A stretch of DNA of 64,000 nucleotides from Nesterenkonia pannonica. GTDB taxonomy: Bacteria; Actinomycetota; Actinomycetes; Actinomycetales; Micrococcaceae. Under the pieces are notes generated by a model, which was not told where the DNA came from, did no database searches, and saw only the letters and a list, made by a program, of their open reading frames with translations. How positions within the stretch are numbered: the first letter of the stretch is position 1; each line of letters begins with the position of its first letter. A program made the translations under genes and the position numbers. Shown here piece by piece: positions 112 through 62,865 of this stretch. The DNA lies in contig NZ_CP080575.1 of assembly GCF_019575955.1 (NCBI RefSeq), positions 992,001 through 1,056,000 on the forward strand, given 5' to 3'.

Positions 112-1323
112 ATGCTGAAGAACAACAGCGGCGGCGCCGTCACCGCCGGAACCTCGAACGTCTTCGAGCTGATGACGCGCAACCTGCGCCAGTCGGGCAT
201 CTACATCGCCTTCGTGGCGATCGTGGTGCTCTTCACGGTGCTCACCCAGGCGCGCTGCTCTCACCGGGCAACCTCACCAACCTGGTGCTGCAGTACTCCT
301 ACATCCTGATCCTGGCCATCGGCATGGTCATGATCATCGTCGCCGGGCACATCGACCTCTCCGTGGGCTCGGTGGTCGCACTGACCGGTGCGGTGGCCGC
401 GGTGGTGGTCATCCGTGAGGGCATGCCCTGGTGGGTCGGCATCCTCGCCGCCCTGCTGACCGGTGTGCTCGTCGGAGTGTGGCAGGGCTTCTGGGTGGCC
501 ATCGTCGGCATCCCCGCCTTCATCGTCACCCTGGCCGGCATGCTGATCTTCCGCGGCATGACCATGCAGGTCCTCGACAACGTCTCCTCTCGCCCTTCCC
601 CAGCGAGTACCAGATGATCGCTTACGGCTTCCTCAACGGGCTGCTCGGCGGAGCCGGGTACGACGTCTTCACCGTCCTCATCGGTGTCCTCGCCGCCGCC
701 TACTTCGGCGTGCAGCAGTGGCGGGTGCGCTTAAGCACAAGGTGCGCTACCGCCAGCCGGTGGAGTCCATCTGGCTCTTCGCAGCGAAGGTGCTGCTCGT
801 CTCGGCCGTCATCCTCGCCTTCGCCTGGAGGCTCGCCAACGCCCGCGGCCTGCCCATCGTGCTGATCCTGCTGGCAGCCCTGGTGCTCATCTACGGCTTC
901 GTCACCCAGCGCACCATCTTCGGCCGCCACATCTACGCCATGGGCGGCAACCTGCAGGCAGCCAAGCTCTCCGGCATCAAGACCCGCCGGGTCAACTTCC
1001 TGCTCTTCATCAACATGGGCGTGCTCGCGGCCATCGCCGGCATCGTCTACTCGGCCCGATCCAACTCCGCACAGCCCGGCGCCGGCTACATGTTCGAGCT
1101 GGACGCCATCGCCGCAGCCTTCATCGGCGGCGCCGCAGTCACCGGCGGTGTGGGCAAGGTCCAGGGCGCCATCATCGGCGGACTCATCATGGCCGTGATG
1201 TCCAACGGCATGCAGATCATGGGCATCGACCAGTCCACCCAGAACGTGGTCCGCGGTGTGGTCCTCGTCCTGGCCGTGGCCTTCGACGTCTGGGCCAAGA
1301 AGAAGGCGGGGATCGAGCGATGA
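112..1323 (+). CDS. Sugar ABC transporter permease (GguB/MmsB/AraH type), frame broken by read errors
   Basis: Membrane permease of a multiple-monosaccharide importer, probably for L-arabinose from its place in the ara operon. ATG at 112 follows the ATPase stop by two bases. The corrected protein is about 404 residues, the usual family length, with many hydrophobic segments and the family signatures ILAIGMVMIIVAGHIDLSVG, AFIGGAAVTGGVGKVQGAI and NGMQIMGID. Three breaks separate the pieces: a lost G near 247, a lost C near 588, and GCTTAAGC at 729-736 in place of GCCGGC. GCTTAC at 620-625 probably also stands for GCCGGC. The gene ends in TGA overlapping the araB start (ATGA). Confidence 0.85.
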
Positions 1324-3026
1324 GCGCGGCAGCCCGCCACGACGACGTCACCATCGGCATCGACTTCGGCACCCTCTCCGGACGCGCAGTCGTCGTCCGG
1401 GTCTCAGACGGGGCCGAGCTCGGCAGCGGAGTCCACGAGTACGAGCACGCGGTCATGGACTCCGCCCTCACCGTTTACGACGGCCAGCAGCTCCCGCCGG
1501 ACTGGGCCCTGCAGAATCCGGGCGACTATGTGAACGTTCTCAAGAACGCCGTCCCTGCAGCCCTGCGGGACGCCGGCGTGCACCCGCAGCAGGTGATCGG
1601 AGTCGGAACCGACTTCACCGCCTGCACCATGGTGCCCACCACCGCGGACGGCACACCGCTGAACGAGCTGCCGCAGTTCGCAGACCGGCCCCACGCCTAC
1701 ACCAAGCTCTGGCGCCACCACGCCGCACAGCCGCAGGCCGACCGCATCAACCAGGCGGCACACCGCCGCTCCGAGCCGTGGATCAGCCGGTACGGCGGGT
1801 TCATCTCCTCCGAGTGGGAGTTCGCCAAAGGCCTCCAGCTGCTCGAAGAGGACCCCGAGGTCTACGCCGCCATGGAGCACTGGGTCGAGGCCGCCGACTG
1901 GATCGTCTGGCAGCTCACCGGCACCTACGTGCGCAACGCATGCTCCGCCGGATACAAGGGCATCCTCCAGGACGGCGAATACCCCTCCCGCGGCTTCCTG
2001 ACCGAGCTGAACCCCGAGTTCGCCGGGTTCGTCGAGGACAAGCTCGACCACCCGATCGGCCAGCTCGGGACCGGGCCGGGTCCTCAGCGCCCAGGCCGCA
2101 GCCTGGACAGGCCTGCCCGAAGGCATCGCCGTGGCAGTGGGCAACGTGGACGCCCACGTCACCAGCCCGGCAGCCGACGCCGTCGAGGACGGCCAGATGG
2201 TCGCCATCATGGGAACCTCCACCTGCCACGTCATGACCTCCTCGCAGCTGGCCGAAGTGCCGGGCATGTGCGGTGTGGTCGACGGCGGCATCCTCGCTTA
2301 ACACATGGGGGTATGAGGCCGGACAGTCCGGCGTGGGGACATCTTCGCCTGGTACGTGAAGAACCAGGTCCCCGGCGCCTACGAGGCCGAAGCCCAGCAG
2401 CGCGGGCTCAGCCTGCACGAGCTGCTCACCGAGAAGGCAGCCGAGCAGCCCCGGGCGCCCACGGGCTCATCGCCCTGGACTGGCACTCCGGCAACCGGTC
2501 GGTGCTGGTGGACCACGAGCTCTCCGGGGCGATCATCGGCCAGACCCTGGCCACCCGCCCCGAAGAGATCTACCGGGCGCTGCTGGAGGCCACCGCCTTC
2601 GGCACCCGCACCATCATCGAGGCGTTCAACGCCGCCGGGGTGCCCGTGCGGGAGTTCGTCGTCGCCGGCATGGGCTGCTGAAGAACCCGGTGCTGATGCA
2701 GATCTACGCCGACGTGCTCGGACTGCCGATCTCCACCATCACCTCCGCGCAGGGTCCCGCGCTCGGGTCAGCCATCCACGCAGCAGTGGCCGCAGGCGCC
2801 TACCCGGACGTCAGGGCAGCCGCCCAGGCCATGGGCGGACGCTCCCGGGAGGCCTACACCCCCGGCCGCAGGCCCAGCTGGTCTACGACCGGCTCTTCAC
2901 CGAGTACACCCGGCTGCACGACTACTTCGGCCGCGGCGGCAACGACGCCATGCGCCACTCAAGGCACTGCGCCGGGAGGCGCTCGCCGGCGCCGCCGAGA
3001 CGCAGCCGGAGACGGTGCCCGCATGA
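1320..3026 (+). CDS. araB: L-ribulokinase, frame broken by read errors
   Basis: FGGY-family kinase that phosphorylates L-ribulose with ATP in L-arabinose breakdown. The ATG at 1320 overlaps the permease stop. The N-terminal ATPase fold shows GIDFGTLSGRAVVV and GVGTDFTACTMVP. The C-terminal half shows GLIALDWHSGNRS, EIYRALLEATAFGTR and ISTITSAQGPALGSAIHAAVA. Corrected length is about 568 residues, normal for AraB. The frame is broken near 2068, 2090, 2296 (GCTTAAC for GCCGGC, giving a false TAA), 2336, 2450, 2678, 2870 and 2957. The end, TGA at 3024-3026 overlapping the araD start, is set by the frame of the last segment. Confidence 0.88.
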
Positions 3027-3755
3027 GCGGCGTGGTCCTGGCCGAGCTGCCCGGCCCGGTGCAGAAGCGGGTGGCCGAAGCCCGGGCGACGGTCGCCGCC
3101 CTGCACGCGGAGCTGCCCCGCAACGAGCTGGTGGTCTGGACCGCTTAAGCAACGTCTCCCAGCGGGTGCCCGACGACGGGCAGGGCCCTGAGCTGTTCGT
3201 CATCAAGCCCTCCGGGGTCTCCTACGACGAGCTCACCCCTGAGCGGATGGTCGTGTGCACCCTCGACGGAGAGAAGATCGACGACGGCACCCCCGCCGCG
3301 CTGAGCCCTCCTCGGACACCGCCGCCCACGCCTACACCTACCGGCACATGCCGCAGGTGGGCGGGGTGGTGCACACCCACTCGCCCTACGCGACCGCCTG
3401 GGCCGCCCGCGCTGAGCCGATCCCATGCGTGCTCACCATGATCGCCGACGAATTCGGCGGGGACATCCCCGTCGGGCCCTTCGCGCTGATCGGCGACGAC
3501 TCCATCGGCCGAGGCATCGTCGAGACGCTGAAGGACTCCCGCTCACCGGCGGTCCTGATGGCAGGCCACGGGCCCTTCACCATCGGCAAGGACGCCCGCG
3601 CCGCCGTGAAGGCCGCCGTGCTCTGCGAAGAGACCGCCCGCACCGTGCACCTGGCCCGCCAGTACGGCGACCCGCCCCGGCTGCACCAGGAGCACATCGA
3701 CGCGCTCTACGCCCGCTACCAGAACGTCTACGGACAGAAGGACCCCACAGCATGA
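3023..3755 (+). CDS. araD: L-ribulose-5-phosphate 4-epimerase, frame broken by read errors
   Basis: Class II aldolase-type epimerase converting L-ribulose 5-phosphate to D-xylulose 5-phosphate. Visible family motifs are [30 protein letters not shown] (two metal-binding His) and LMAGHGPF (third metal His). About 243 residues after correction, close to the family norm. GCTTAAGC at 3143-3150 replaces GCCGGC in WTAGNVSQ and makes a false TAA; one C is lost near 3305. It overlaps araB by four bases and araA by four bases, so translation of araB, araD and araA is probably coupled. Confidence 0.9.
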
Positions 3756-5274
3756 ACACCCAGCTCAGCGACCCCTACGCGGACAAGTGCGTCTGGTTCC
3801 TCACCGGATCCCAGGACCTCTACGGCGAGGAGACCCTCGCCCAGGTGGAGGCCCAGTCCCGCAAGATCGCCGTCCGGCTCGACGCCGCCGGCGAGGTGCT
3901 TAAGCAGGCGTGGCATGGAAGCCGATCCTGAAGGACCGGGACTCCATCCGTGCCGCAGCCCTGGCCGCCAACGCCGACCCCGACTGCCTGGGCGTCATCG
4001 TCTGGATGCACACGTTCTCCCCGGCGAAGATGTGGATCGCCGGGCTCGAAGCCCTGACAAGCCGGTGCTGCACCTGCACACCCAGGCCGAGGCGGGCCTG
4101 CCCTGGGAGTCCATCGACATGGACTTCATGAACCTCAACCAGGCGGCCCACGGAGACCGCGAGTTCGCCTACATGGCCACCCGCATGGGCGTCTCCCGCA
4201 AAACGGTGGTCGGCCACGTCTCCGATGAGGCCGTGCGCGGCCGTGTGGGCACCTGGGTGCGCGCCGCGGCAGGATGGCAGGCGCTGCGAGGCATGAAGGT
4301 GTGCCGGTTCGGCGACAACATGCGCAACGTCGCCGTCACCGAGGGCGACAAGACCGAAGCCGAGATCCGTCTGGGCGCCTCGGTTAACACCTGGGCCGTC
4401 AACGAGCTGGCGGAAGCCGTCGAGCAGACCTCAGCCGCGGATGTCGAGCCGCTGCTGAAGGAGTACGAGGAGCTCTACGACGTCGCCCCCGAGCTGCGAG
4501 CCGACGGTGCGCGCAGAGAGTCCCTGGTCTACGCGGCCCGTCAGGAGCACGCCATGCGGCGCTTCCTCGACGAAGGCGGCTTCACGGCATTCACCACCAA
4601 CTTCGAGGACCTCGGGGCCCTGCGCCAGCTCCCCGGCCTGGCTGTGCAGCGGCTGATGGCCGCCGGGTTCGGGTTCGGCGCCGAAGGCGACTGGAAGACG
4701 GCGCTGCTGGTCCGGGCCGCGAAGGTGATGGGCCACGGGCTCGACGGCGGCGCCTCCCTGATGGAGGACTACACCTACGAGATGACCCCGGGCAAGGAGA
4801 AGATCCTCGGCGCCCACATGCTCGAGGTCTGCCCCAGCCTCACCACCTCCCGCCCCTCCCTGGAGGTCCACCCGTTGGGCATCGGCGGACGGGAGGACCC
4901 GGTGCGCCTGGTCTTCACCGCCGACCCCGGCCCGGGCATCGTGGTGGCCATGTCAGATCTGCGCGAGAGGTTCCGGCTCACCGCCAACGTGGTGCAGCTG
5001 GTGGAGCCGGACGCCCCCTGCCGAACCTGCCCGTGGCGCGGGCCGTCTGGGAGCTTAAGCGCCCTCCTTCGCAGCAAGCGCTGAGTGCTGGCTCAGCGCA
5101 GGCGGCGCCCACCACACGGTGATGTCCACCGCCGTGGGCAGGGAGGCCTTCGAGGACCTCGCCGACATCGCCGACGTGGAGCTGGCGCTCATCGACGAGA
5201 CCAGCAGCCCGCGGCAGTTCGCCCAGCAGCTGCGGTGGAACGCCGCATACCACCGCCTCGCCCAAGGCCTGTAG
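3752..5274 (+). CDS. araA: L-arabinose isomerase, frame broken by read errors
   Basis: Isomerises L-arabinose to L-ribulose, the first catabolic step. Conserved features include [13 protein letters not shown] near the start, [35 protein letters not shown], and the four metal-binding residues in [10 protein letters not shown] (Glu), MEDYTYE (Glu), [10 protein letters not shown] (His) and GGAHHTVMS (His). About 507 residues, as expected. Breaks: GCTTAAGC at 3898-3905 and 5053-5060 where VPAG and WEPAPSF require GCCGGC, and small losses near 4058 and 5020. Stop TAG at 5272-5274 is followed by a strong hairpin. Confidence 0.92.
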
Positions 5275-5282
5275 AGCCTGAC

Positions 5283-6516: not shown

Positions 6517-7470
6517 CGCTCCCGCGCCGTCCATGCGTCCTCCACCATCTCCTTCACCGTTCGCCGCGGACGCCATCCCAGGCCCTCCGCAGCCTTCCGG
6601 CCCGAGGCCACCAGCACCGCAGGATCCCCAGGCCGACGAGGATGCTCCTGGGCCGGAACCGGATGCCCCGTGGCCTGCCGCACCGCACCGATCACCTCAC
6701 GCACACTCGTGCCGGTGCCGGTGCCCAGGTTGTAGACCTCATGCACCCCGGCCTCCGCGGCATCCAGCGCCCGCACATGCGCGTCGGCCAGGTCCACCAC
6801 ATGGATGTAGTCCCGGATGCAGGTGCCGTCCCGGGTCGGATAGTCGGTGCCGAAGATCGACGCGAGCTGCGCTCGCGGCGGCCACCTTCAGCAGGTTGGG
6901 GATCAGGTGCGTCTCGGGATCGTGACGCTCGGCCAGCACGCCGCCGCCTTCGACGAAGGCCGCTCCCGCCACATTGAAGTAGCGCAGCGACACCGCCGCG
7001 AGCCCGTGGGCTGCCGCCTCCGCGGTGAGCATGTGGTCGATGGCGAGCTTGGAGGCGCCGTATGGGTTGGTCGGATGGGTCGGCTGGTCCTCCGTGATGC
7101 TGTCCGCGGCAGGCTCGCCGTAGGTCGCAGCGGTGGAGGAGAAGACCATGCGCGGCACCCCGGCCTCACGCATGGCATCGAGCAGGTGAAGGGTCTGCAC
7201 GATGTTGCCGTGCCAGTACAGCTCAGGCCTGCTCACGGACTCCCCGACGAGGGACTTCGCGGCGAAGTGCAGCACCGCATCGAAGCTGGAGTCCAGCACC
7301 CGCCCGGCCTCGCCGATGGGCAGACGGTGCAGCCTCGCTCCGGCCGGCACGCTCGCGGCATAGCCGGTGCTGAGGTCGTCGATGACCTCCACCGTGTGGT
7401 AGGCGGCCAGCACCTGCTGCGTCACCACTGAGCCGATGTAGTAAGCCCCGCCGGTCACCAGGACCTTCAT
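6513..7470 (-). CDS. galE: UDP-glucose 4-epimerase, one frame break
   Basis: Short-chain dehydrogenase that interconverts UDP-galactose and UDP-glucose with bound NAD. The N-terminus reads VTGGAYYIGS where the family has GGAGYIGS: GTAAGC at 7441-7446 stands for GCCGGC, so the missing nucleotide-binding glycine is a read error. The catalytic Ser-Tyr-Lys set is present (FSSTAATYG, NPYGASK), with the FNVAGA and CIRDYIHVVDLADAH motifs. A frame break lies near 6870. It overlaps galT (7467-7470) and galK (6513-6516). Confidence 0.92.
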
Positions 7471-10910: not shown

Positions 10911-12124
10911 TCAGGGCTTCGGGCCTACCAGGGCGTGCGCTGCCCCTGCCGTCGCGGCCTCCAGGGGCCCTCGCCTCTTCACCAGCACCTTCACCAGACC
11001 CAGGACCAGGAACGCGACGATGAACCCCGTCCAGAGCATCGGTGGGGTGACCGTCTCCTGCAGGTCTTCGCTGGGATGCCACACTGCCAGCACCAGCAGG
11101 TGGGCGGTGTAGAGCGTCAGCGGCATCGCGCCGGCGCTTACCAGGGGTGCGGTGAGCCAGGGGAGGGCCGCAGCGATGAGCAGGAGGACGCCGAGGGTCA
11201 GCATCGAGGTGCTCAGCGTGTGGATGAGATCCACCGGGGATCCCTGATGCGGGGTGACCAGGCCGAACCAGGCCGGGTGGGTGATGAAGGGCAGCAGGTG
11301 GTCGTTGGTCTCCAGGGCGCCCTGCACCTCGTGCGGCTCATAGCCGGAGAGCTGCTGGAGGTGGCCGAACATGCCGGAGGTCTCCACCGTCGCCCACCCG
11401 ATCAGGTAGGTGGCCGCAGCGCCCGCAGCACCGGCGGCGGCCAGGGCGGCCGCCGTGGAGAGGCGGCGCAGGTTCAGGCGGCCGATGGCCATGCCCGCGA
11501 AGAAGTACGCCTACCACACCAGCAGCGGGTAGTAGCCGGTCACCGTCAGGTCCAGCGCCAGGGTGCCCGGATCCACGAAGGTCTCCGGACTGTCCGAGAG
11601 GTCCAGGAAGGTGGGGAGTGCCAGAGCCGCTCCGGCTGGCTGCTGAGCGTCTCCCGCAATGCGTTCTGCCACAGGTAGAGGGCCGCAGGGCCCAGAAGTG
11701 CGAAGCCCGCCGAGAGTCCAGCCAGGGCTTTGGCGCCCAGCCGCAGGAAAGGCAGCGCTAGGAGGAACATGAGCCCGTAGTTGACCAGGATCACCGCCAC
11801 GCCGTGATTCATCAGGGCGAGGAAGGCGCCCAGCACGATGATCAGCCCGGCGCGCACCGCCACGGCACGACGCGTCCACGAGAGCGTCAGCGCATCCGAG
11901 GTGCGCGAGCTCATCAGGGCCAGTCCCACTCCCGCCAGCACCGCGAAGAGGGCCGCGGAGCGGCCGGAGAGCACCAGGCCTGCGGTGGAGGCGGTGCCGT
12001 CCGGGTTCTGGCTGCTGATCACGTGCACAGTCATCATGCCGATCAGTGCGGCCCCGCGAGCGGCATCCACGCCGAGGAGACGTCCGGTGGCTCTCCGAGA
12101 TTCGGTGCCGGTGCGAGACTTCAC
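10911..12124 (-). CDS. Multi-pass membrane protein, heparan-alpha-glucosaminide N-acetyltransferase/DUF418-like
   Basis: Integral membrane protein of about 400 residues with 8 to 10 hydrophobic helices. LLGVDAARGAALIGMM near the N-terminus is the hallmark of this acyltransferase-like family, whose founders move acyl groups onto sugars across membranes. The C-terminal half holds AGAMPLTLYTAHLLVLAVWH, also typical. Frame breaks lie near 11510 and 11635, and GCTTAC at 11136-11141 stands for GCCGGC. I prefer the GTG at 12122-12124 because an ATG at 12166 would run into dapA. The substrate is unknown. Confidence 0.7.
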
Positions 12125-12143: not shown

Positions 12144-13103
12144 ATGACCGGCGACCAGGACACCACCCGCGAGTTCGACCCCTATCTGGCTGAGGGGAGA
12201 TCAAGCACCCTGATCAGACCGACCCCTACTTCGGGCACCTGGCCACTGCCATGGTCACACCCTTCACCGCGGATGACCGGGTCGACTTCGAGGCGTTCGA
12301 GGCCCTGGCGCACAAGCTCGTCGAGGAGGGCAACGACTCGCTGGTGGTCTCCGGGACCACCGGAGAGACATCCACCCTCGAGGACTACGAGAAGGCTGAC
12401 CTGGTCCGCGCCGCCAAATCCGCGGTGGGGACCGGGCCAAGATCATCGCCTACACCTCCACCAACCACACCAGCCACGACCTCGAGATGGCCGCGAAGGC
12501 CGAGCGAGCGGGAGCCGACGGCCAGCTGGTGGTCACCCCGTACTACAACAAGCCCTCCCAGGACGGCGTGCTCGCCCACTTCAGGGCCGTCGCGGACGCG
12601 GCGGACCTGCCGCTGATGATCTATGACATCCCCGGGCGCACCGGCATCCCGATCGCCACCGAGACCATCCTCCGGCTGGCCGAGCACCCGCGCATCATGT
12701 CGCTCAAGGACGCAAAGAACGACATCACGGCCACCACTGAGGTGCTCACCAAGACCGAGCTGGAGATCTACTCGGGCGATGACCAGAACGTGCTCGCATG
12801 GATGGCGATGGGCGCCGCTTGCGTGGTCTCGGTCACCAGCCATGTGGCCTCCCGACCTTCCGGCGCATGATCGACGCGCTGCTGAACTATCAGCTGAAGG
12901 ACGCCCGCATCGCTCACGGCGAGCTGGGCCCCGTGATCCGCGCCATGATGACCCGCGTGCAGGGCAGCGTGGCCTCCAAGCTGACCCTGAACTGGATCGG
13001 ATTCCCCATCCGCACTGACGTTCGCCTGCCCCTGGTGCAGGCAAATGAGGCTGAGCAGGAGCTCATCCTCCACGACCTGCGGAGAGTTTACTGGCAGCTG
13101 TGA
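12144..13103 (+). CDS. dapA: 4-hydroxy-tetrahydrodipicolinate synthase, frame broken by read errors
   Basis: Condenses pyruvate with aspartate semialdehyde in lysine/diaminopimelate synthesis. TIM-barrel motifs: HLATAMVTPF, VVSGTTGETSTL (substrate Thr pair), VVTPYYNKPSQDG, MIYDIPGRTG (catalytic Tyr) and IMSLKDAKND (Schiff-base Lys). About 320 residues. Bases are missing near 12198, 12433 and 12855. Start ATG at 12144. Confidence 0.92.
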
Positions 13104-14878: not shown

Positions 14879-17859
14879 ATGGCGACACGTACTTCCCCTC
14901 GCGGTCGTCCGGACAGAAGAGCTCCTCCGGCCGCGGGACGACGTCTGGAAAGAAGAAGCAGCAGCCTGCTGAGGAGCAGGTGCCGCTTCCCGCGCGCATT
15001 CTCACGGCCCTGTGGATGGCACTGGCGACCCCTGTCGGGACCAGTGTGCGCGGGGTCGGACGGCAGGTGAAGATCCACCCCGACGACCGTCGCGACGCGG
15101 CGGGCCTGGTGTTTCTGCTGCTGGCCGCACTCACCGCCGTCGTCGACTGGTGGGGCGCCCGGCACTGGGACCACTGGGTCCCCGAGCTCATCCATCGGCT
15201 GACTGCGGGGTCATTGGGCTGGGCGAGCGTGATCCTTCCCTTGCCCTGCTCATCACCAGCGTGCGGCTCTTCCGCACGCCGCAGGCCCATGACAATAACG
15301 GGCGCGTCGCGCTGGGCCTGGCGATCATTCTCGCCGCGGGCGCTTACCTGGCCCACCTCGCAGCGGGTCTGCCGAGCATCAACGAGACCTTCGAGCAGGG
15401 AGAGGCTTACGGCTTCGAGCAGATGCTCAGCTCCGGCGGTGTGATCGGCTACCTCGTGGCCGTGCCGATGGCCTCCTGGTGACGGCCTACCCGGTGTGGT
15501 TCATCCTCAGCGCCATCCTCATCGCAGGGATCCTGGTGCTCACCGACACCCCCGTCCGCCGCATCCCCGAGCGGATCGACGTGGCACGCCACTACCTGAT
15601 CGGCGAGGCGGCGCCGCGCCCTGCCCGCTCCGAGGACGCCGACGCCGAGCAGATGCCCTCCGGCGGCGATTCGCAGCAGCAGACCGCCCAGTACACCGGC
15701 GTGAGCCCGCAGGCGCCCAAGTCCAAGACCAAGGCCAAGTCGCAGCGCCCCGGCTTCTTCTCCAAGATCGGGAGCAGCGACTCTGAAGAGGACGAGGCCG
15801 CGCAGACCCAGGCCACCGAGATCCTTGCGGAGAGCGCCCCAGAGGGTGCCTACGATTCGCCCGTGCAGGTGGAGTAGGCGCAGAACGATGAGTCGGCTCC
15901 GAAGCCCGGCACCAAGCGGCCCACCAAGCAGCAGCGCGAGATCCAGGCGGCCAAGGAGGCCGCGGGCCTGTACGACTATGAGGAGATGGTCGGCCAGAAG
16001 GCGGCCGCGGCGCCCAAGGACGGCGCCTCGTCGTCTGCGGGATCGATCCCCATGACCAACGAGCCGGAGAAGCTTACGCCCATCACCGACTTCCCCGTCC
16101 GCTCGGAGCAGCTGGAGCTCGCCGGCGACGTCACCTACACCCTGCCGGACCAGAAGCTTCTGCCCGCCTACCCGGTGCCCAAGGAGCACACGGCCGCCAA
16201 TGACGAGATCGTCGAGGCGCTCAACCACACCTTCGACCAGTTCAAGGTCGAGGCGCAGGTGACCGGCTTCTCGCGCGGGCCCACCGTGACCCGCTACGAG
16301 GTCGAGCTCACCCCTGGCACCAAGGTGGAGAAGGTCACCAGCCTCGAGAAGAACATCTCCTGGCCGTGGCATCCAACGAGGTGCGCATCCTCAGCCCGAT
16401 CCCCGGCAAGTCAGCGATCGGCATCGAGATCCCCAACCGGGACAAGGAAGTCGTAGCGCTTGGCGACGTCATGCGCTCCAACGCAGCACGCCGCACCGAG
16501 CACCCGATGGTGATGGGAGTGGGCAAGGACGTCGAGGGCGGCTACGTCGTGGCCAACCTCGCGAAGATGCCCCACATGCTCGTCGCCGGTGCGACGGGAG
16601 CTAAGCAAGTCAGCGTTCATCAACTCGATGATCACCTCCGTGCTGATGCGGGCCACCCCGGATGAGGTGCGCATGGTCATGGTGGACCCCAAGCGGGTCG
16701 AGCTGACCGGCTACGACGGCATCCTCACCTGATCACGCCCATCATCACCGACCCCAAGAAGGCCGCCGAGGCGCTGGAATGGGTCGTCAAGGAGATGGAC
16801 AACCGGTACGACGACCTCGCCCACTTCGGCTACAAGCACGTCGACGACTTCAACAAGGCGGTGCGCGCCGGAAAGATCCAGCTGCCGCCCGACTCCCAGC
16901 GCGTGCTCCGCCCGTATCCCTACCTGCTGGTGATCGTCGACGAGCTGGCTGACCTGATGATGGTCGCCCCCAGGGATGTCGAGGACAGCATCGTGCGCAT
17001 CACCCAGCTCGCGCGCTGCGGGCATCCACCTGGTGCTGGCGACCCAGCGCCCCTCGGTCAACGTGGTCACCGGCCTCATCAAGGCCAACGTGCCCTCCCG
17101 CATGGCCTTCGCCACCTCCTCTGCCACCGACTCCCGCGTGGTGCTGGACTCCGTCGGCGCGGAGAAGCTGCTCGGCCAGGGCGACGCCCTCTTCCTGCCC
17201 ATGGGCGCCTCCAAACCGATGCGTGTGCAGGGCGCCTGGGTCAACGAGTCCGAAGTCCATGCGGTGGTTGAGCATGTGAAGTCGCAGCTGAAGGCGCAGT
17301 ACGTCGACGATGCTGTGAAGGCCATGGAGCCGAAGAAGAAGGACATCGACGAGGACATCGGCGATGACCTCGAGCTGCTGCTGGCCGCGACCGAACTGGT
17401 GGTCACCACGCAGTTCGGCTCCACCTCCATGCTGCAGCGCAAGCTCAGGGTCGGCTTCGCCAAAGCGGGCTTACTCATGGACCTCATGGAGTCGCGCGGG
17501 GTCGTCGGCCCCTCCGAAGGGTCGAAGGCCCGCGACGTCCTCGTGCCCCGGACGAGCTCCCTGATGTGCTGGCGACCATCAAGGGCGAGGACGCTCCGCA
17601 GGACGAGGAGCCCTACAACGGGGCGGCCGTCGGCGTGGAGACGGCACAGGGCACGGCGGTGCCCGAGCCGCAGCAGGCCCCGGCTTAGCGCACCTCCCCA
17701 GGAGGCACCACAGGCACCGTGCACACCGGCGAGGTCCAGGACCTCATCGCCGCCGATCTGGCCGAACGGACCCAGCAGATCCCGAAGGCAGCCGACTACT
17801 ACGACGGCCACGATTCCGACGGTGCCGAGGACGCGTGGGAGCTCACCGGAAGAGGCTGA
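14879..17859 (+). CDS. ftsK: DNA translocase FtsK, frame broken by read errors
   Basis: Septum-anchored motor that pumps chromosome ends apart during division. N-terminal basic region, about four membrane helices ([18 protein letters not shown] onward), a charged linker, then the motor domain: [11 protein letters not shown] at the Walker A site, [13 protein letters not shown] (Walker B), [23 protein letters not shown]-terminal gamma winged helix ends in [21 protein letters not shown]. The Walker A lysine region is misread because GCTAAGC at 16600-16606 replaces GCCGGC. Others: 15342, 15405, 16072, 17469 (Arg read as Leu) and 17683 (false TAG). Many one-base losses. End taken as TGA at 17857. 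Confidence 0.9.
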
Positions 17860-21838: not shown

Positions 21839-23371
21839 ATGACAGACACCCTCGAGGACCTTTCCGCACCGACCGCTGGCGCTGTCCGCACCTACGAAGT
21901 GCGCACCTTCGGCTGCCAGATGAACGTCCACGATTCGGAGCGGATCTCCGGCCTCCTCGAAAGCTCCGGCTACGTCGAGGCGCAGGAGGGGCAGAGCCCT
22001 GACCTGGTGGTCTTCAACACCTGCGCAGTGCGGAGAACGCCGACAACCGGCTCTACGGGAACCTCGGCCAGCTCAAGAGCACCAAGGACGTGCAGCCAGG
22101 GATGCAGATCGCCGTCGGCGGGTGCCTCGCCCAGAAGGACCAGAACACGGTCCTGGAGAAGGCGCCCTGGGTCGACGTGGTCTTCGGCACCCACAACATC
22201 GGATCCCTTCCCACGCTCCTCCAAAGGGCGCGGCACAACGCCGCAGCCGAGCTGGAGATCCTCGAATCCCTCGACACCTTCCCGTCCACCCTGCCCACCA
22301 AGCGCGAATCCGTGCACTCGGGCTGGGTGTCGATATCAGTCGGGTGCAACAACTCATGCACCTTCTGCATTGTGCCCTCACTGCGCGGCAAGGAGAAGGA
22401 CGCTTACCCGGCGAGATCCTCGCCGAAGTCCAGGCGCTCGTCGACGACGGCGCCGTGGAGGTCACCCTGCTCGGCCAGAACGTCAACACCTACGGCGTCG
22501 AATTCCGCGACCGCGGAGCCTTCGCCAAGCTTCTGCAGCCTGCGGCGACATCGAAGGTCTTGAACGGGTGCGCTTCACCAGCCCCCACCCGGCCTCCTTC
22601 ACCGACGACGTCATCGACGCCATGGCAGAGACGCCCAACGCCATGCCCCAGCTGCACATGCCCCTGCAGTCCGGCTCAGACCGGATCCTCAAATCGATGC
22701 GCCGGTCCTACCGCTCCAGCCGGTTCCTCTCCATCCTGGAGAAGGTGCGGGACCGGATGCCCCACGCAGCCGTCACCACCGACATCATCGTCGGGTTCCC
22801 GGTGAGACCGAAGAGGACTTCCAAGAGACCATGCGGGTCGTCGAGGAGGCCCGCTTCGCCAGCGCCTACACGTTCCAATACTCCCCGCGGCCCGGAACCC
22901 CGCCGCCGAGTTCGACGAGCAGCTCCCCAAAGAAGTCGTCCAAGAGCGCTTCGAGCGACTCATCGCCCTGCAGAACCGAATCTCCGGAGAAGAGAACAGA
23001 AAGCTCGTCGGCACGCGCCAGGAGCTTCTCGTCACCGCAGACTCCGGACGCAAATCCGCCCAGACCGCCCGTCTCACAGGGCGTGCGGCAGACAACCGGC
23101 TCGTCCACTTCGCCGTCCCCACGGGCAGCCCGGAGCCCCGCCCCGGCGACTTCGTCACCGTGCCCATCACCCAGGGCGGAAAAGCGCACCTCATCGCCGA
23201 TCCCCAGCCCGAGGAGTATGCCCTGCGCCGCTCCCGCGCAGGCGAGGCCTGGGACCGCTGGCAGGCCGAATCGTGCGGAGTGGGCACCACTCAGGTCGAC
23301 GGCACCAAACCGGCCTCCGTCTCCCTGGGCATGCCCAGTCTCCCGCCTGCTTAAGCAGCGTCCGAGTCTGA
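21839..23371 (+). CDS. miaB: tRNA-2-methylthio-N6-dimethylallyladenosine synthase, frame broken by read errors
   Basis: Radical-SAM methylthiotransferase acting on A37 of tRNAs already modified by MiaA, its neighbour. N-terminal cluster cysteines in TFGCQMN, NTCAVR and GGCLAQ; radical-SAM motif CNNSCTFC; C-terminal TRAM domain ([22 protein letters not shown]). About 510 residues. Breaks near 22032, 22402 (GCTTAC for GCCGGC), 22545, 22800, 22900 and 23349 (GCTTAAGC, false TAA). The corrected stop is TGA at 23369. Confidence 0.92.
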
Positions 23372-29235: not shown

Positions 29236-30834
29236 ATGACTGAACAGAACAATCACCCCTCAGACGCGTCCATCGACGAGACGATCGCCCGCATCCTCGC
29301 CGCCGACGACACCGCCCGCAGCACCGAGGCCAGCACCTTCACCCAGGCTGAGGATGATGCGGAGACCGCTGACGCGAACCGTGCCTCCGCACGCCGCTCC
29401 GTCCTTCAGGGCCGGGCCCGGGAGCTCGCGGACCTCGGCGAGCACACCGAGCACGACGGCGACCAGTTCGACCTGGTCGAGCGCCGCAGCCTCAGACGCG
29501 TGGAGGGCCTCTCCACGGAGCTCGAAGACGTCACCGAGGTCGAGTACCGGCAGCTGCGCCTTGAGCGAGTGGTGCTCGCCTAGCCTCTACACCGGCAGCA
29601 GCACCGCCGAGGCGGAATATTCGCTCCGGGAGCTCGCAGCGCTGGCTGAGACGGCTACTCGACGGTGCTCGACGGCTTCCTGCAGCGGCGCGCCACTCCA
29701 GACCCCGGAACGTTCTTCGGGTCGGGCAAGGCCGAGGAGATGCGGATCGCTGTCGCGGAGCTCGGCGCGGACACCGTCGTGGTGGACTCCGAGCTGGCGC
29801 CGTCTCAGCGCCGCGGGCTTGAGGACATCGTCAAGGTCAAGGTGATCGACCGCACCGGCCTCATCCTGGACATCTTCGCCCAGCACGCCAAGTCCCGGGA
29901 GGGCAAGGCGCAGGTGGAGCTGGCCCAGTTGGAGTACCTGCTGCCGCGCCTGCGCGGCTGGGGCGACTCCATGTCCCGTCAGGCTGGCGGTCAGGCGGTA
30001 AGCGGCGCCGGCATGGGCTCCCGCGGCCCCGGTGAGACCAAGATCGAGCTGGACAGGCGTCGCATCAATCAGCGCATGGCGAAGCTGCGCCGCGAGATCG
30101 CGGGCATGAAGCCCGCGCGTGAGGCCAAGCGGGCCAATCGTCGGCGCAACGCGGTCCCGTCCGTGGCCATCGCCGGCTACACCAACGCGGGCAAGTCCAG
30201 TCTGCTCAACCGCCTCACCGACGCGGGAGTCCTGGTGGAGAACGCTCTGTTCGCCACACTGGACCCCACCACCCGCAAGGCGGTCACCCCGGACGGCATC
30301 GGATACACGCTCTCGGACACCGTGGGCTTCGTCCGTCAGCTGCCCACTCAGCTGGTCGAGGCCTTCCGGTCCACGCTCGAAGAGGTCGCCGAGGCAGACC
30401 TCATCCTCCACGTGGTGGACGCTTCGCACCCTGAGCCTGAGGGCAGATCGCCGCGGTGCGGCAGGTGCTCGCCGACGTGGACGCGCACGAGGTCGACGAG
30501 ATCATTGTGCTGAACAAGGCTGATGCCGCCGAGGACCACGTCATCGACCGGATCAGGCGCCGCGAGCCCCATGTTGCGGTGGTCTCCGCCCACACAGGCC
30601 TGGGCATCGAGGAGCTGAAGCAGCGGATTGCCGACTCCATCCCTCGGCCCAACATCGATATGGATCTGCTCGTGCCGTACTCCATGCGGCGACGTCGTGT
30701 CCCGGCTTCACGCGGCGGACGCGGAGATCCTGCACACCGAGTACGAGGAGGAGGGCACGCGCCTGAAGGTCAGGGTGCGCGGCCCGCTGGCGGCAGAGCT
30801 GCAGCAGTACCGGGTGCAGGACCGCCCCGCATGA
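29236..30834 (+). CDS. hflX: Ribosome-splitting GTPase HflX, frame broken by read errors
   Basis: GTPase that separates stalled or antibiotic-bound ribosomes. The N-terminal HflX domain shows GTFFGSGKAEEM and VVDSELAPSQRRGLED. GMGSRGPGETKIELDRRR is the family linker. G motifs: AGYTNAGKSSLLNRL (near residue 314), DTVGFVRQLP and LNKAD. About 532 residues with a long acidic N-terminus. GCCTAGC at 29578 (false TAG) and GTAAGC at 29998 stand for GCCGGC. Bases are missing near 29657, 30443 and 30690. The stop overlaps dinG. Confidence 0.93.
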
Positions 30835-34215: not shown

Positions 34216-35344
34216 GTGACTGACGCTCAGACTTCGAACGAACGCGCTGACCGCCTGGCCGCTCTGCCGATCCGCGAGGAGCTCCACGGGCAGGAGCCGT
34301 ATGGTGCGCCCCAGCTGACGGTGCGTGCCATGCTCAACGTCAATGAGACCACCCACGAGGTGCCGGCGGACGTGGTGGAAGCGATTACGAAGCAGGTCCA
34401 TGCGGCCGCTTCGCAGATGAACCGGTACCCGGATCGTGAGTTCACCGAGCTCAGGCAGAAGCTCGCCGACTTTCTGAGCCGCGACCTGCCGGGCGGCAGC
34501 CTCTCGGCGGAGAATATGTGGGCGGCCAACGGGTCCAATGAGGTGATGCAGCACCTCCTCCAGGCCTTCGCCGGGCCGGGGCGGTCGGTGATGGCGTTCC
34601 CTCCCACGTATTCGATGTACCCTCTACGCGAGAGGGACCTACAGCGACTACATCGCGGGTACGCGGAACGCTGACTACACGCAGTCCGCGGACGATGTGG
34701 CCGACCAGATTCGCCGCGATCGCCCGCACGTCGTCATCCTCACCTCGCCGAACAACCCCACCGGCACCGCGCTGGAGCTGGACGTAGTGCGCGCCGCCTA
34801 CGAGGCGGCCGCGGAGTCCAACACGCTGCTGATCGTCGACGAGGCCTACGGAGAGTTCCGCCAGCCCGGCGTCCCCTCTGCGGTGGAGCTGCTGGAGGCC
34901 TACCGCTGCTGGTCGTGACCCGCACCATGTCCAAAGCATTCGCCATGGCTGGGGCTTACTGGGATACCTGGCCGCGGCCCCGGAGGTGACCGACGCGCTG
35001 AGGCTCGTGCGTCTGCCGTACCACCTGTCGGTCTACACCCAGGCTGCCGCGTCCGCCGCACTCGACCATGCCGAGAGCCTCATGGCCAACGTGGAGAAGA
35101 TCAAAGTCCAGCGGGACCGCATCATGGAGGAGCTGCGTTCCATGGGGCTGAACCCCAGTCCCTCGGACGCGAACTTCGTGCTCTTCGGGGCCTCACCGAT
35201 GAGAAGGCAGCGTGGAAGCACCTCCTGGCCGATGAGGTGCTGATCCGCGATGTGGGAATCCCCGGCCACCTGCGCGTCACTGCCGGAACTGAGGAGGAGA
35301 CGACCCTGTTCCTCGACTCACTGCGCACCTTCGTCGGCCGGTAG
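34216..35344 (+). CDS. hisC: Histidinol-phosphate aminotransferase, frame broken
   Basis: Pyridoxal-phosphate enzyme of histidine synthesis. LNVNETTHEVP, AANGSNEVMQHLLQAFAGPG, LTSPNNPTGTAL, LLIVDEAYGEF and the cofactor Lys in TMSKAFAMAG. After that the read gives GCTTAC (34954-34959) where the conserved GGRLGYL needs GCCGGC. About 377 residues. Breaks near 34625, 34906, 34953 and 35190. GTG start at 34216 after AGGATGGAG; it heads the his cluster. Confidence 0.92.
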
Positions 35345-43660: not shown

Positions 43661-44880
43661 ATGGATGCTGCTGGCATTGTCGAGTCGGAAGTGCGCGACA
43701 TCATTCGCGCACGAGGGATAGATCCGTCTTCGGATCCGGCCGAAGTGCGTCGGCTGGTGGAGAGCTCAGTCGCTGACTATGAGCGCAGATCTCTTCTCGC
43801 TCCTCTGCCGGTTCTCCACTCCGGCGAGCACATCGCGGCGGAGATCTACGACAGCGTGGCAGGATTCGGCGAGCTCCAGCCGCTCCTGGACGACCCGGAG
43901 GTGGAAGAGATCTGGGCCAATGGGCCCCATGAGATCTTCTGCAGCCGCGGCGGTCGATCGGAGCTGACCTCCGTCACCCTGTCGGACACCAGGATGCGTG
44001 ATCTGGTGGAACGGATGCTGAAGACGAGCGGCCGCCGCCTGGATGTCTCGTCTCCCTTTGTGGATGCTGCCCTTCCAGACGGATCGCGGCTGCACGTGGT
44101 CATCCTGACATCACGCGACGCCACTGGGCGGTCAATATTCGCAAGTTCATCTCGCGAGCCGCCAGTCTGGAGGACCTGGTCGCGTACGGCTCGCTGAGCC
44201 CGAAGGCAGCCGAGTTCCTCAGCCTCGCAGTAGGGGCCGGGATGAATGTCCTCGTATCCGGCGCGACTCAGGCTAAGCAAGACGACGATGCTCAACTGCC
44301 TCAGCGCTGCGGCCGGGCCGCGGGAGCGCATCGTGAGCGTCGAGGAGATCTTCGAGCTGCAGATACCTCAGCGAGATGTGGTGGGGCTGCAGTGCCGCCA
44401 GTCCAGCCTTGAAGGCACTGGTGAGATACCGCTGCGCCGACTCGTCAAGGAGGCGTTGCGCATGCGCCCGGATCGCCTCATCGTAGGAGAGGTGAGGGAG
44501 GCGGAGAGCCTCGACATGCTCATAGCCCTCAACAGCGGCCTGCCGGGGCCGCCACCGTCCACGCAAACTCTGCGCAGGATGCGCTCACCAAGATCTGCAC
44601 TCTGCCCATGCTGGCTGGAGAGAACATCTCCTCAAGCTTCATCGTGCCGACCGTCGCCTCCTGCATCGACCTCGTCGTCCACTGCGCGCGCACGAGTTCG
44701 GGTCGTCGGCACGTTGAGGAGATTCTGGGCGTCTCCGGCCGCCTCGAAGGAGACACGATCGAGACGTGCAGCCTGTTTCTGCATGACGGCGACGATCTTC
44801 GCCCCAGCAGAACGGCGCTGTTCGACCACCCCCGGCTGCCCAAAGCAGCCGCCCAGCTCCTGAGAGAGGCGCACCGGTGA
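43661..44880 (+). CDS. tadA: Tad pilus secretion ATPase TadA/CpaF, frame broken
   Basis: Hexameric ATPase powering Tad pilus assembly. FGELQPLLDDPEVEEIWANG, LVERMLKTSGRRLDVSSPFVD, Walker A near residue 203 (VSGATQ..GKTTMLN; GCTAAGC at 44272-44278 replaces GCCGGC), RIVSVEEIFELQIP, LVKEALRMRPDRLIVGEVRE (Walker B region) and a C-terminal part ending in LLREAHR. About 406 residues. Other breaks near 44104 and 44540. The GTG of tadB overlaps its stop. Confidence 0.9.
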
Positions 44881-48199: not shown

Positions 48200-49311
48200 A
48201 TGGCAGAGACAGACTTTCCCGCCGAGTTGGCCGACCTGCGCGACACCCTGCGCCGCATCACCGAGGTCATCGACCTGGAGGCGCTGCGCGCTGAGGTCGC
48301 AGACCTCGAGCAGCAGGCAGCGGACCCCAACCTGTGGGACAACCAGGAGAACGCCCAACGAGTCAACTCCCAGCTGAGCCACAAACAGGCTCACCTTGAC
48401 CGCGTCGACAGACTCGGCGGACGCATCGAAGACGTCGAGATCATGGCGCAGATGGCCGCCGAAGAAGCTGACGAAGACACCCGCGCGGAAGCCGTCAACG
48501 AACTCGCAGGCATCCGGAAAGCCCTCGACTCGCTCGAAGTCGTCACCCTCATGTCCGGTGAGTACGACGAGCGCGACGCCGTCGTCACCATCCGTTCCGG
48601 CGCCGGGGAGTGGACGCGGCAGACTTCGCCGAAATGCTGCTGCGGATGTACACCCGCTGGGCCGAGACGCGAGAATGGGACGTCAAAGTCTTGGACACCT
48701 CCTACGCCGAAGAAGCCGGACTGAAGTCCGCCACCTTCGAAATCAAGGCGCCCTACGCCTTCGGCACCCTCTCCGTGGAAGCTTAAGCACCCACCGGCTC
48801 GTGCGCATCAGCCCCTTCGACAACCAAGGCCGACGGCAGACCAGCTTCGCCGCCGTGGAAGTCATCCCCTGCTCGAAGGCACCGACTCCATCGACATCGA
48901 TGAGAATGACCTCAAGATCGACGTCTACCGGTCCTCAGGCCCCGGCGGGCAGTCAGTCAACACCACCGACTCCGCCGTACGCATCACCCACCTGCCCACC
49001 GGCACCGTGGTCTCCATGCAGAACGAAAAGTCGCAGATCCAGAACCGCGCAGCCGCCATGCGCGTGCTCGAATCCCGCCTGCTCCTCCTCAAGAAGGCAG
49101 AAGAGGCAGCCGAGAAGAAAGAGCTCGCTTACGACATCAAAGCATCCTGGGGCGACCAGATCCGCTCCTACGTGCTGCACCCCTACCAAATGGTGAAAGA
49201 CCTCCGAACCGGCCACGAAACCGGAAACGCCGACAAAGTGCTCAACGGCGAACTCGAAGGCTTCATCGAAGCAGGAATCCGCTGGCGCGGACAGGGCGGA
49301 GAGGACTCTAG
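48200..49311 (+). CDS. prfB: Peptide chain release factor 2, frame broken
   Basis: Recognises UGA/UAA and releases peptides. [20 protein letters not shown] at the start, [20 protein letters not shown], the catalytic GGQ in [20 protein letters not shown], and [19 protein letters not shown]. About 370 residues. There is no in-frame TGA near codon 25, so no programmed frameshift. GCTTAAGC at 48781 (false TAA) and GCTTAC at 49127 replace GCCGGC. A lost C near 49307 hides the real stop TAG at 49309 and makes a false fusion to ftsE. Confidence 0.93.
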
Positions 49312-49315: not shown

Positions 49316-50477
49316 GTGATCCGGTTCGACCAGGTCACCCGCACCTACGGCTCCGGGGAGAAGCCCGCGCTCCACGACATCTCCGTCGAATTCCTGCGCG
49401 GAGACTTCGTCTTCCTCATCGGCGCCTCCGGCTCCGGCAAATCAACGCTCCTGCGCATGATCCTGCGCGAAGGTCTCCCCAGCCGCGGCAGAGTCACCGT
49501 CGCTTACCAGAACCTCGCCATGATGCTCGAACGGCGCGTCCCCAATACCGGCGCTCCATCGGCATGGTCTTCCAAGACTTCCGCCTCCTGCCCGACAGGA
49601 CCATCTTCGAAAACGTCGCCTTCGCCATGCGCGTCACCGGAGCGAAGCGCACCCACATCCGCCCACGCGTCACCAAGACCCTGCAGCGAGTCGGGCTCGA
49701 GCACCTCGCCCGCCGCTACCCCCACGAAATCTCCGGAGGCGAACAGCAGCGCGCCGCCATCGCCCGCGCCGTCGTCAACAAACCCTCCATCCTCCTCGCC
49801 GACGAGCCCACCGGAAACCTCGACCCCGGGCATCAGAGGAAGTCATGAACATCCTCCGGCGCATCAACGACGCCGGCACCACCGTCATCATGGCCACCCA
49901 CGACCGCGCCATCGTAGACAGCATGTCCCGCCGCGTCGTCCAGCTCCACCGCGGCGAACTCGTCCGCGACGAGCAGCCCGGCACCTACGACCCGCCCGTG
50001 GGCTCCCGCGCCTGGAGAGCCCTCGTCGCCGAAGAGTCCAGCTCCGGGCTGCGCGCCCAGGACCCCATCCCGCTGCGTACCGAAGCCGTCCCCACCGTCG
50101 CAGAGCAAGACCCCGCCGCCTCAGAGCCCAGTGCCACCAGCGCGCCCTCCGCCGAAGAGGCCGACCCCGCTGCCCGCCCCGAAGCGATCTACCGGGTCAC
50201 CTGGCCCGGCGACGACACCGACGACGAGCACTTCCAAGAAAGAGTCCTGCCCGAAGAAGACGTCGAACCTGACACCGCACCCAACCCCGGGCGCCGACGC
50301 ACACACCCGAAGAATCAGCGGCCCCAGCCGAGGAGCGTCCCCACGCACCGCGCCTCGGCTGGCTCAGCCGCGGAACCGACGAAACCCCAAGCCGCGCCTC
50401 GGGGAGCCGCCGCCGAATCCGAGGAATCCGAAAGATTCAGCTTCCGACGCGACCCCGGCGGGAGCAACGACGCATGA
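49316..50477 (+). CDS. ftsE: Cell division ATP-binding protein FtsE with long C-terminal tail, two frame breaks
   Basis: ABC-type ATPase that with FtsX couples division to peptidoglycan hydrolases. [20 protein letters not shown] (Walker A), [20 protein letters not shown] (Q-loop), [19 protein letters not shown] (signature), [13 protein letters not shown] (Walker B), [10 protein letters not shown] (His switch). The ATPase needs about 230 residues; a further 150 or so acidic, Pro/Ala-rich residues run to 50477. GCTTAC at 49502 is GCCGGC; breaks near 49545 and 49830. GTG start at 49316 by homology; stop overlaps ftsX. Confidence 0.9.
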
Positions 50478-59233: not shown

Positions 59234-59270
59234 AAAGAGGGGCTGAGCACAAAGTGCCCAGCCCCTCTTT
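59234..59270. terminator. Terminator between tmRNA and the upstream region
   Basis: AAAGAGGGGCTG pairs perfectly over 12 bases with CAGCCCCTCTTT, loop of 13. On the minus strand it directly follows the tmRNA 3' end and is followed by a short run of T. Confidence 0.85.
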
Positions 59271-59275
59271 CACTG

Positions 59276-59648: not shown

Positions 59649-59689
59649 ATATGCTGTTGCCAAACTGGCCCCGGTTCCCGGAGACCGTC

Positions 59690-59719
59690 ACTATAGGATA
59701 ACCGCGAATCCGCGTGCAA
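59690..59719 (-). promoter_or_regulatory. Promoter of ssrA
   Basis: On the minus strand TTGCAC (-35) and TATAGT (-10) are separated by 18 bases. Transcription would start about 35 bases before the mature tmRNA end, leaving a leader for RNase P. Confidence 0.65.
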
Positions 59720-59745
59720 CATTCCCGCTTACCGCTAAGCGGTGA

Positions 59746-60607: not shown

Positions 60608-61299
60608 GCGGCAGTGCTCACCCGCACAGCGTGGGCCACGTCGTGGAGAGCGAGAATCCGGATCCCGCTCCGCCCGCAAGCGTCACCTCACCATCGAGGG
60701 CCTCCAGCACCTGCACCGATGATCCGATCGTGACCTGCTGCTCGGCGAGGATCCGCAGGGCCTCGGGCACGGCGTCGTCGACCTGCTCCACCACGGCCTG
60801 CGTCCGGCCCGGCACCTGGCACAGGCGAGTCGTCGAGGGGTAGTGCATCTTGAGGTCCTTCGCGGGAATCGGATCGCCGTGTGGGTCCGAGGCAGGACGT
60901 CCGAGCCGCTCATCGAGCCTGTCCACAAATACTTCGGAGACGGCATGCTCCAGGCGCTCCGCCTCTTCGTGCACTTCGTCCCAGCCGTAGCCGAGCTCAT
61001 TGACCAGCCAGGTCTCGATGAGTCGGTGGCGCCGGACCATCGCCAGCGCCAGCCGGTGCCCCGCGTGGGTCAGGCGAATGGGGGCATACGGCTGATGGTC
61101 CACCAGGCCCAGCTCCGCCATCTTCTTGACCATGAGAGTCACTGACGGGTTGGAGACCCCGAGCTTCTTGGCCAGTGCGCTGGCAGTGACGGCAGCCCTC
61201 CCACTCGGCGATGCCGTAGATCGTCTTCGCGTAGTCCTCGACGCTCGTGGTGGCTGCGGGGGCATGCGTGGACTGTCCCTGGGCAGAGGTTCGCGGCAT
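60604..61299 (-). CDS. mntR: DtxR/MntR-family metal-dependent repressor, two frame breaks
   Basis: About 230 residues. Winged helix: SVEDYAKTIYGIAEWEG, LAKKLGVSNPSVTLMVKKMA, ELGLVDHQPYAPIRLTHAGH. Dimerisation/metal domain: WDEVHEEAERLEHAVSEVFV and a C-terminal FeoA/SH3-like part (IGSSVQVLEALDGEVTLAGG). Breaks near 61205 and 60655; the corrected C-terminus ends in STAA and overlaps crcB. It most likely controls the adjacent ABC transporter through the operator at 63862. Mn versus Fe specificity cannot be told here. Confidence 0.85.
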
Positions 61300-61309
61300 G
61301 ATGCCCAGT

Positions 61310-62144
61310 CTACGACGCCGGGGTCCGGCGGCTGCGGAGCCTGCGCACACTCGCCAGTCCGTAGGCGATGACGAACTGAGCGGAGGCGGCGAGCACGATC
61401 GAGGCGCCCGTGGCGACGTCCAGCCAGTAGCTCGCATACACACCCACCACCGCCGAGATGACGCCCACCGCCGTGGAGAGCATCAGCATGGTGGTGAACC
61501 GCCGGGCGACCAGGAAGCTCGCCGCCCCGGAATCACCAGCATCGCAACCACCAGAATCACCCCGAGCGTCTGCAGGGACGTCACCGCTGTCAGGGCCAGC
61601 AGCACCAGCAGGACCCCATGCAGGACCCCACCGGCAGGCCGACTGTCCGGGCGTAGGTCGGGTCGAAGGCCACCAGGGTGAAGTCGCGGCGCTTCAGGAG
61701 CAGCACCAGCACGGTCAGGGTCCCCAGTGCAGCGACTTGGTAGAGGTCGGTGCGGGACGTGCCCAGGACATTGCCGAAGAGGATGTGCTGCAAGTGGGTG
61801 GAGGTCGTCACCGTGGAGATCAGGACCAGGCTTATGGCGAAGAGCGAGGTGAACACCACGCCGATCGTTGCGTCCTGCTTCAGCCGAGTGGTTCGGCCCA
61901 GCGCACCGGTCAGCACCACCGCCAGCATCCCGAAGACGAAGGCGCCTGCCCCCAGGGGCACTCTGATGATGAAGGCGAGGACCACCCCAGGAAGGATCGA
62001 GTGAGCCACAGCCTCGCCGATGAGCGACCAGCCCATCAGTACCAGCCATGACGAAAGCATGCCGCAGACCGCGCAGGCGACGACGGCCACCAGCAGCGCA
62101 TTCTGCATGAAGGGGTACTGCAGAGGGGTGAGAATGGCCTCCAT
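61310..62144 (-). CDS. mntB: Metal ABC transporter permease (MntB/ZnuB family), frame broken
   Basis: About 282 residues, eight or nine helices. YPFMQNALLVAVVACAVCGM, WSLIGEAVAHSILPGVVLAF, RLKQDATIGVVFTSLFAISL and LQTLGVILVVAMLVIPGAAS are ABC-3 family signatures. Breaks near 61622 and 61528. It overlaps the ATPase stop and lies 10 bases before mntR. Confidence 0.88.
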
Positions 62145-62865
62145 CACTGCGCTGACCCGAGCTCTCCGCCGATGGCGGCGCCGAAGGCCAGCGCCAGGTT
62201 GGTCTCGGTCAGGACCTCCCGGGCTTACCGAGGCCAGGATCCGGCGATGGAGCAGAAGCACCTCATCGGCCAGGGCCCGCACCCTCCAGATGGTGCGTGG
62301 ACACCAGCACTGCGGCACCGCTGCTGCGCAGTCGCCGCAGCACGCGCGTGATGAGCTCCTCCGATCCGCGGTCGACCCCGCGAACGGTTCGTCCAGCAGC
62401 ATCAGAGGTGCCTCCTGCGCGAGGGCGCGCGCCACAAATGCCCGCTTGCGCTGCCCCCGGAAAGCTGACCGATCCCGCGCTGACGGAGCTCCAGAAGGCT
62501 CACATCCGCCAGCGCCTGCTCCGCCGCGGCGCGGTCCGCCGCGGAGGGCCGACGGGTCAGGCCCTGATGGGCGAAACGACCCTGCATCACCACTTCCTCC
62601 ACGGTGATGGGAAAAGCCATGTCCACCGCATCCTGCTGCGGCACATAGCTGACCCGGTTGTGCCGCCGTGCCGCCGCAGGGCGCTCGCCGAAGAGATGCA
62701 CCTCCCCGGCAGAGGGAGTCACCAAGCCCAGCAGGACGCTGAAGAGCGTGGACTTGCCTGAGCCGTTGGCTCCGAGCAGTGCTGTGATGCTCCCCGGGCG
62801 GAGGCTGAAGGAGATGTCCTCCAGAGCGGTCACCCCGAATAGCTTACCGTCAGGGCAGACACCAC
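62144..62865 (-). CDS. Metal ABC transporter ATP-binding protein, frame broken
   Basis: About 243 residues. ITALLGANGSGKSTLFSVLL (Walker A), NRVSYVPQQDAVDMAFPITV (Q-loop), GIGQLSGGQ (signature), LMLLDEPFAGVD (Walker B). The N-terminus reads VSALTAGYSGVTALEDISF once GCTTAC at 62842 is restored to GCCGGC; I set the GTG at 62863-62865, though an ATG near 62874 in another frame is possible. GCTTAC at 62223 is another miscall; breaks near 62450, 62378 and 62285. Confidence 0.85.

Follow-up and report, generated by a model that had tools for sequence, protein, structure and literature searches.

GCTTAC-type words across the Nesterenkonia pannonica assembly: a probable consensus footprint of methylation at GCCGGC

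Methylated motifs are a known source of error in long-read assemblies. Base ambiguities that split forward and reverse nanopore reads are described at methylated motifs, where small changes in frequency tip the result and amplification by polymerase chain reaction cures it (PMC11389150), and in one K. pneumoniae set about 70% of the consensus errors from the default basecallers of the time are attributed to Dcm motifs (PMC6591954). Likewise, 5-methylcytosine (m5C) is reported at GCCGGC in N. gonorrhoeae (PMC12871193) and A. hydrophila (PMC8565308), and GCCGGC is listed with NaeI in PMC7653180; another review prints a different word. Here we examine a 64,000-base stretch of the Nesterenkonia pannonica genome (bases 992001-1056000 of the single 2,699,453-base [2.70 Mb] contig G000:C1; hereafter the window), in which GCTTAC, its reverse complement GTAAGC, and longer relatives such as GCTTAAGC stand where GCCGGC would be expected. 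The observation was confirmed and extends genome-wide, and its reading as the trace of a DNA modification is supported: we put at roughly 90% the probability that these words are sequencing errors at methylated GCCGGC that arose on each strand separately and were then fixed or fused in the consensus. Among the matches listed in the literature on nanopore methylation, motif and strand-specific errors, NaeI, and Nesterenkonia, as far as those texts were available, none was seen to describe GCTTAC called in place of GCCGGC.

The window contains 23 copies of GCTTAC, five of GTAAGC, seven of GCTTAAGC, four of GCTAAGC, two of GCTAGGC, one each of GCTTAGC and GCCTAGC (43 sites, 15 of which change the length of the word), and 28 of GCCGGC; the variant words and their positions had been given correctly by a first-pass annotation made from the letters of the window. 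That annotation had proposed a genome-wide count, which placed the effect across the whole genome and not in the window alone. With the reversed word in the same genome as control, GCCGGC occurs 686 times against 2715, a ratio of 0.25 compared with 1.10-1.41 in 12 genomes of the same genus (congeners), whereas GCTTAC in both orientations occurs 1238 times against 1037, a ratio of 1.19 compared with 0.11-0.60. GCTTAAGC is present 165 times, versus 1-13 times in the 12 congeners, and this is the maximum in a family sample of 295 genomes, including 22 of the same genus (1-31 copies). When 6-mers on both strands of 304 kb of this genome were compared with 359 kb from five congeners, the strongest depletion was that of GCCGGC (198 vs 992) and the strongest enrichment that of GCTTAC (155 vs 16). 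One family genome with 154 copies of GCTTAAGC (G164) was considered as a second case and dismissed as ordinary, because the 60 kb read have 52% GC and show no depletion of GCCGGC. A Markov expectation computed inside the window (23 GCTTAC vs 21.3 expected, no excess) was discarded as uninformative, since such a model absorbs the signal, which becomes visible only by comparison with relatives.

A larger sample of this genome, 444 kb, revealed the range of products. GCATAC, GCCTAC, GCGTAC, and GCTTAC are enriched 3.0-, 2.0-, 2.1-, and 8.6-fold, respectively, versus 1.13-, 1.10-, 1.20-, and 1.03-fold for the endings ATAC, CTAC, GTAC, and TTAC behind the other fifteen two-base prefixes pooled; the gain is thus tied to the GC prefix, and the usual product is therefore GCNTAC. 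The list in the first-pass annotation was right as far as GCTTAC goes and missed the other three enriched words. In the same sample 593 ± 32 GCCGGC sites are missing, and the gains amount to ∼447 GCNTAC (composition-corrected), 24.5 GCTTAAGC, 35 GCTAAGC (orientations counted once), and 13.8 GCCTAGC, ∼520 in sum. About four fifths of the expected GCCGGC sites are gone, and survival depends on the flanks, with none of ∼39 expected sites remaining in the G.C context and 36 of ∼80 in the C.A context, which fits the earlier suggestion that calling is near a tipping point. Two other words are under-represented relative to the five congeners: per 100 kb, GGTCACC occurs 41 times against 81-104, and ACCGAGG 30 times against 42-91, which would reflect either a second affected motif or only codon usage.

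Alignment with homologs showed what relatives carry at these sites. At least one relative could be aligned at 24 of the 43 window sites, and at 11 of these 24 at least one relative carries GCCGGC in register, compared with 29 of 5576 sampled baseline positions; at none of the 24 does any aligned relative carry the window's own variant word. At two further sites, the relatives have the residues that GCCGGC would encode: in galE (TIGR01179), a minus-strand gene, GTAAGC at 7441..7446 turns the GGAGYIG of both in-frame relatives into GGAYYIG, and in ftsK, GCTTAC at 17469..17474 (this and all following window words on the plus strand) turns AGRLM, part of the FAKAGRLMDLM found in four of four relatives, into AGLLM. 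A DinG-type helicase is struck twice, by GTAAGC in its P-loop at 30994..30999 (LLVQAGTGTG in three in-frame relatives, LLVQVSTGTG here; GCCGGC in two of four relatives) and by GCTTAC at 32568..32573 (GCCGGC in three of four), where an Arg present in four of four relatives becomes Leu and CRLV reads CLLV. In prfB, GCTTAC at 49127..49132 replaces the Ala-Gly of four in-frame relatives with Ala-Tyr (GCCGGC in four of 14 relatives, GCCGGA or GCCGGG in six more). The claim that conserved residues are broken at these words was thus borne out for GalE, FtsK, the DinG-type helicase, and PrfB. GCTTAC at 49502..49507, in a gene called FtsE by the first-pass annotation only, faces GCCGGN in 13 of 14 relatives and changes a Gly (three in-frame relatives) to Tyr; in hisC, GCTTAC at 34954..34959 faces GCCGGC in one of four relatives, at a residue that is not resolvable because the frame is broken nearby. 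The additional product GCCTAC behaves similarly at 11509..11514, 12448..12453, and 32189..32194, where GCCGGC is found in three of four, four of four, and two of four relatives, respectively; across 25 aligned GCCTAC sites a relative has GCCGGC at five. Six of the seven copies of GCTTAAGC lie at 729..736, 3143..3150, 3898..3905, and 5053..5060, each without an aligned relative, and at 23349..23356 and 31757..31764, both poorly aligned and within frameshift intervals.

Words that change length also break reading frames. Frameshift-tolerant alignment was applied to four of the 15 such words, selected as places where a relative carries GCCGGC, and the break fell exactly on the word in all four: GCTAAGC in the ftsK P-loop (16600..16606; +1; GCCGGC in one of four relatives and GCCGGN in two more), GCCTAGC in hflX (29578..29584; +1; one of four), GCTAAGC in the P-loop of a TadA-type ATPase (44272..44278; +1; one of seven), and the fused form GCTTAAGC in prfB (48781..48788; +2; nine of 14). 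In each case a relative has Ala-Gly at the word, and opposite errors elsewhere restore the frame, 118 bases on in ftsK. Junctions from tblastn had placed five of the 15 words in frameshift intervals (one of them with a single genome), versus 9.8% of covered bases; because words with a compensating error behind them escaped this method, the four places were realigned allowing frameshifts. Errors of other kinds are also common. Within the 54.8 kb under relatives' open reading frames (ORFs) there are 60 frameshift regions supported by at least two relatives, of which 35 contain a run of at least four, and 444 kb hold not a single G/C run of at least six, compared with 5-14 runs of six per 100 kb in congeners. 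The missing long runs are run-length truncation of a long-read consensus, and the assembly as a whole is probably an error-rich nanopore consensus, the platform being deduced from these features.

The orientation of the words follows neither genes nor chance. Relative to the coding strand, 58 words have the same orientation, 55 the opposite, and 42 are undecided; a coding-strand bias, considered as a mark of genuine sequence, is hence absent. Orientation is nonetheless uneven among 20 stretches (chi-square 65, 19 degrees of freedom, p = 6e-7), and in 204 kb of contiguous sequence neighboring sites share their orientation in 50 of 73 cases, versus 40.6 when shuffled (p = 0.01). Agreement is 63-73% for pairs separated by up to 12 kb and 51-52% for more distant ones, with chance at ∼53% and the pairs not independent of one another. 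Blocks of up to ∼12 kb are on the scale of long reads, not genes, and would be expected of a consensus built where forward and reverse reads differ locally in number. Read from that consensus, they indirectly support the strand-specific miscalling postulated in the first-pass annotation, and GCTTAAGC would then be GCTTAC and GTAAGC overlapped on TA. In the 444 kb of samples, GCTTAC and GTAAGC stand at 126:75.

A methyltransferase of NaeI/NgoMIV-like specificity had been predicted to lie outside the window, and a candidate is present. More than 800 kb away, at ∼174.7-177.1 kb of the contig (within locus L137, G000:C1:166001-184000), a C5 methyltransferase gene, one of two in the genome (L137 8672-9409, plus strand, continuing in another frame; PF00145, 1.1e-53), adjoins pieces of a NaeI-family endonuclease homolog. 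Two pieces have PF09126 matches of 2e-27 and 7e-21, and the sole Protein Data Bank (PDB) match of each at E ≤ 0.001 is NaeI (1ev7/1iaw); positions 2-267 of the 288 in the PF09126 profile are covered in four pieces. Beside these genes lies one for a Vsr mismatch endonuclease (L137 10646-11083, plus strand; TIGR00632, 1.2e-35). Among the 13 loci compared, the only match to this Vsr, at 63% identity, was in a locus of genome G002 included on account of another, distant C5 methyltransferase. Of the 295 family genomes, 12 have a PF09126 match (11 exceed the cut-off), and the 20 other same-genus genomes listed have none. In nine of nine family genomes with a full-length NaeI homolog, the neighboring methyltransferase shares 58-74% identity with the one here (five seen in part only); in a tenth with a weaker match (G249), it is only 33% identical. 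The genome-wide footprint fits GCCGGC, the word listed with NaeI, as the putative target of this NaeI-type system. The nine genomes have GCCGGC ratios of 0.85-1.70 and GCTTAC ratios of 0.17-0.61, that is, they keep their sites; therefore the system alone does not remove them, and a sequencing method that stumbles on them would be needed.

The following sequence of events would account for these observations. The NaeI-type C5 methyltransferase, if active, would methylate GCCGGC on both strands, presumably as m5C, and native DNA would have gone through a long-read basecaller, most likely for nanopore data, with a model ill suited to the modified word. Reads of each strand would then turn GCCGGC into GCNTAC, mostly GCTTAC or GCCTAC, equivalent to GTANGC in the coordinates of the other strand, and the consensus would adopt whichever form belongs to the strand that dominates locally, or merge both as GCTTAAGC or GCTAAGC, with part of the GCCGGC sites surviving depending on their flanks.

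Several points weigh against this reading. The miscalling and the platform are both deduced from a finished consensus. Both the methyltransferase and the endonuclease gene are frameshifted as assembled, and the genome has a second C5 methyltransferase (L138 7674-8591, minus strand, ∼1.76 Mb on G000:C1), which sits among ORFs of prophage-like look. If the mark falls on the CpG cytosine, basecalling models trained on human DNA might cope with it. Nineteen of the 43 sites have no aligned relative, 11 of the 24 aligned sites are too divergent to inform, and GCCTAC is partly genuine, with a relative carrying GCCTAC itself at six of the 25 aligned sites. Conservation of GCCGGC between window and relatives is low (4 of 49), which is weak evidence by itself because CCCGGG (1 of 23) and GGGCCC (0 of 8) are also poorly kept; identity at conserved positions was accordingly set aside as sole proof. 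GCCTGC, outside the accounting above, is up as well (+240 ± 42 in 444 kb), and counting it in makes gains exceed losses, so that base composition must contribute somewhere and the accounting is rough. Finally, the orientations are unequal genome-wide (732 GCTTAC vs 506 GTAAGC), with no cause found.

Closest to the favored explanation is a mark going beyond simple m5C: the NaeI-type island, or another enzyme, would make a modification that is bulkier or doubled. This would explain why most sites show a multi-base miscall instead of one ambiguous base, and we consider it improbable. A wider form of this improbable reading is that finished public assemblies of unpolished long reads keep a readable methylome fossil from which enzyme specificity would be predictable without raw signal. 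Slightly less probable still is a different chemistry at GCCGGC, such as a phosphorothioate, N4-methylcytosine (m4C), or deazaguanine. The extent of the miscall, beyond single-base ambiguity, speaks for it, but the neighbor of the NaeI homolog belongs to the C5 family and has a Vsr gene beside it. Moreover, the Dnd phosphorothioation offered as an alternative in the first-pass annotation is without support, as no DndC match was found at E ≤ 0.001 in this genome or the 12 congeners (Ssp and Dpd systems were not searched), and no N6/N4 methyltransferase of family PF01555 was found in this genome. Equally doubtful is basecaller error at GCCGGC from sequence context alone, with no modification: the missing G/C runs and the many frameshift regions show that other long-read errors abound, yet CGGCCG, of equal composition, persists at 107 per 100 kb (97-151 in congeners), and the NaeI-type system is present here, with no match in the 20 congeners listed. 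Real mutation, with GCCGGC lost by restriction avoidance or decay of methylcytosine and GCTTAC genuine, is scarcely tenable, for although avoidance would give such strong depletion, genomes with full-length NaeI retain the site, the decay products GCTGGC/GCCAGC are not enriched (526 vs 626), conserved residues are hit and the frames of prfB, ftsK, hflX, and the TadA-type gene are broken, and the orientation of the words is indifferent to coding strand and runs in blocks of read length.

If the words are indeed miscalls at methylated sites, then roughly 2,300-3,600 GCCGGC sites have been lost genome-wide (a scaled estimate), leaving thousands of false words, invented codons, and frameshifts, which together with the other errors probably lower the completeness value of this genome (62.5). 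The case also suggests that the specificity of a restriction-modification system is predictable from a palindrome depleted in a consensus and a mirror pair enriched there; here the NaeI-type system was found far from the window. Run on other long-read-only assemblies, the same test could expose corrupted genomes and point to methylase motifs for which the raw signal no longer exists.

Compared with the systems outlined at the start, this case joins a known kind of artefact to a known kind of enzyme system, and its special features are the multi-base miscall and its recognition from nothing but the consensus. The methylation-linked nanopore errors described in PMC11389150 and PMC6591954 share with those seen here their occurrence at a motif in native DNA, the disagreement between strands, the tipping point, and the large share of consensus errors; they differ in that the words here have two or three altered bases or are longer by one or two, most of the sites are gone, and the error is recognized from the consensus. 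The likeness to GCCGGC methylation in N. gonorrhoeae and A. hydrophila is one of motif. To the NaeI system (PDB 1ev7/1iaw; PF09126) the resemblance lies in an endonuclease homolog beside a C5 methyltransferase, as in nine family genomes, whereas here the genes are frameshifted in the assembly, a Vsr gene follows, and the specificity is a predicted one.

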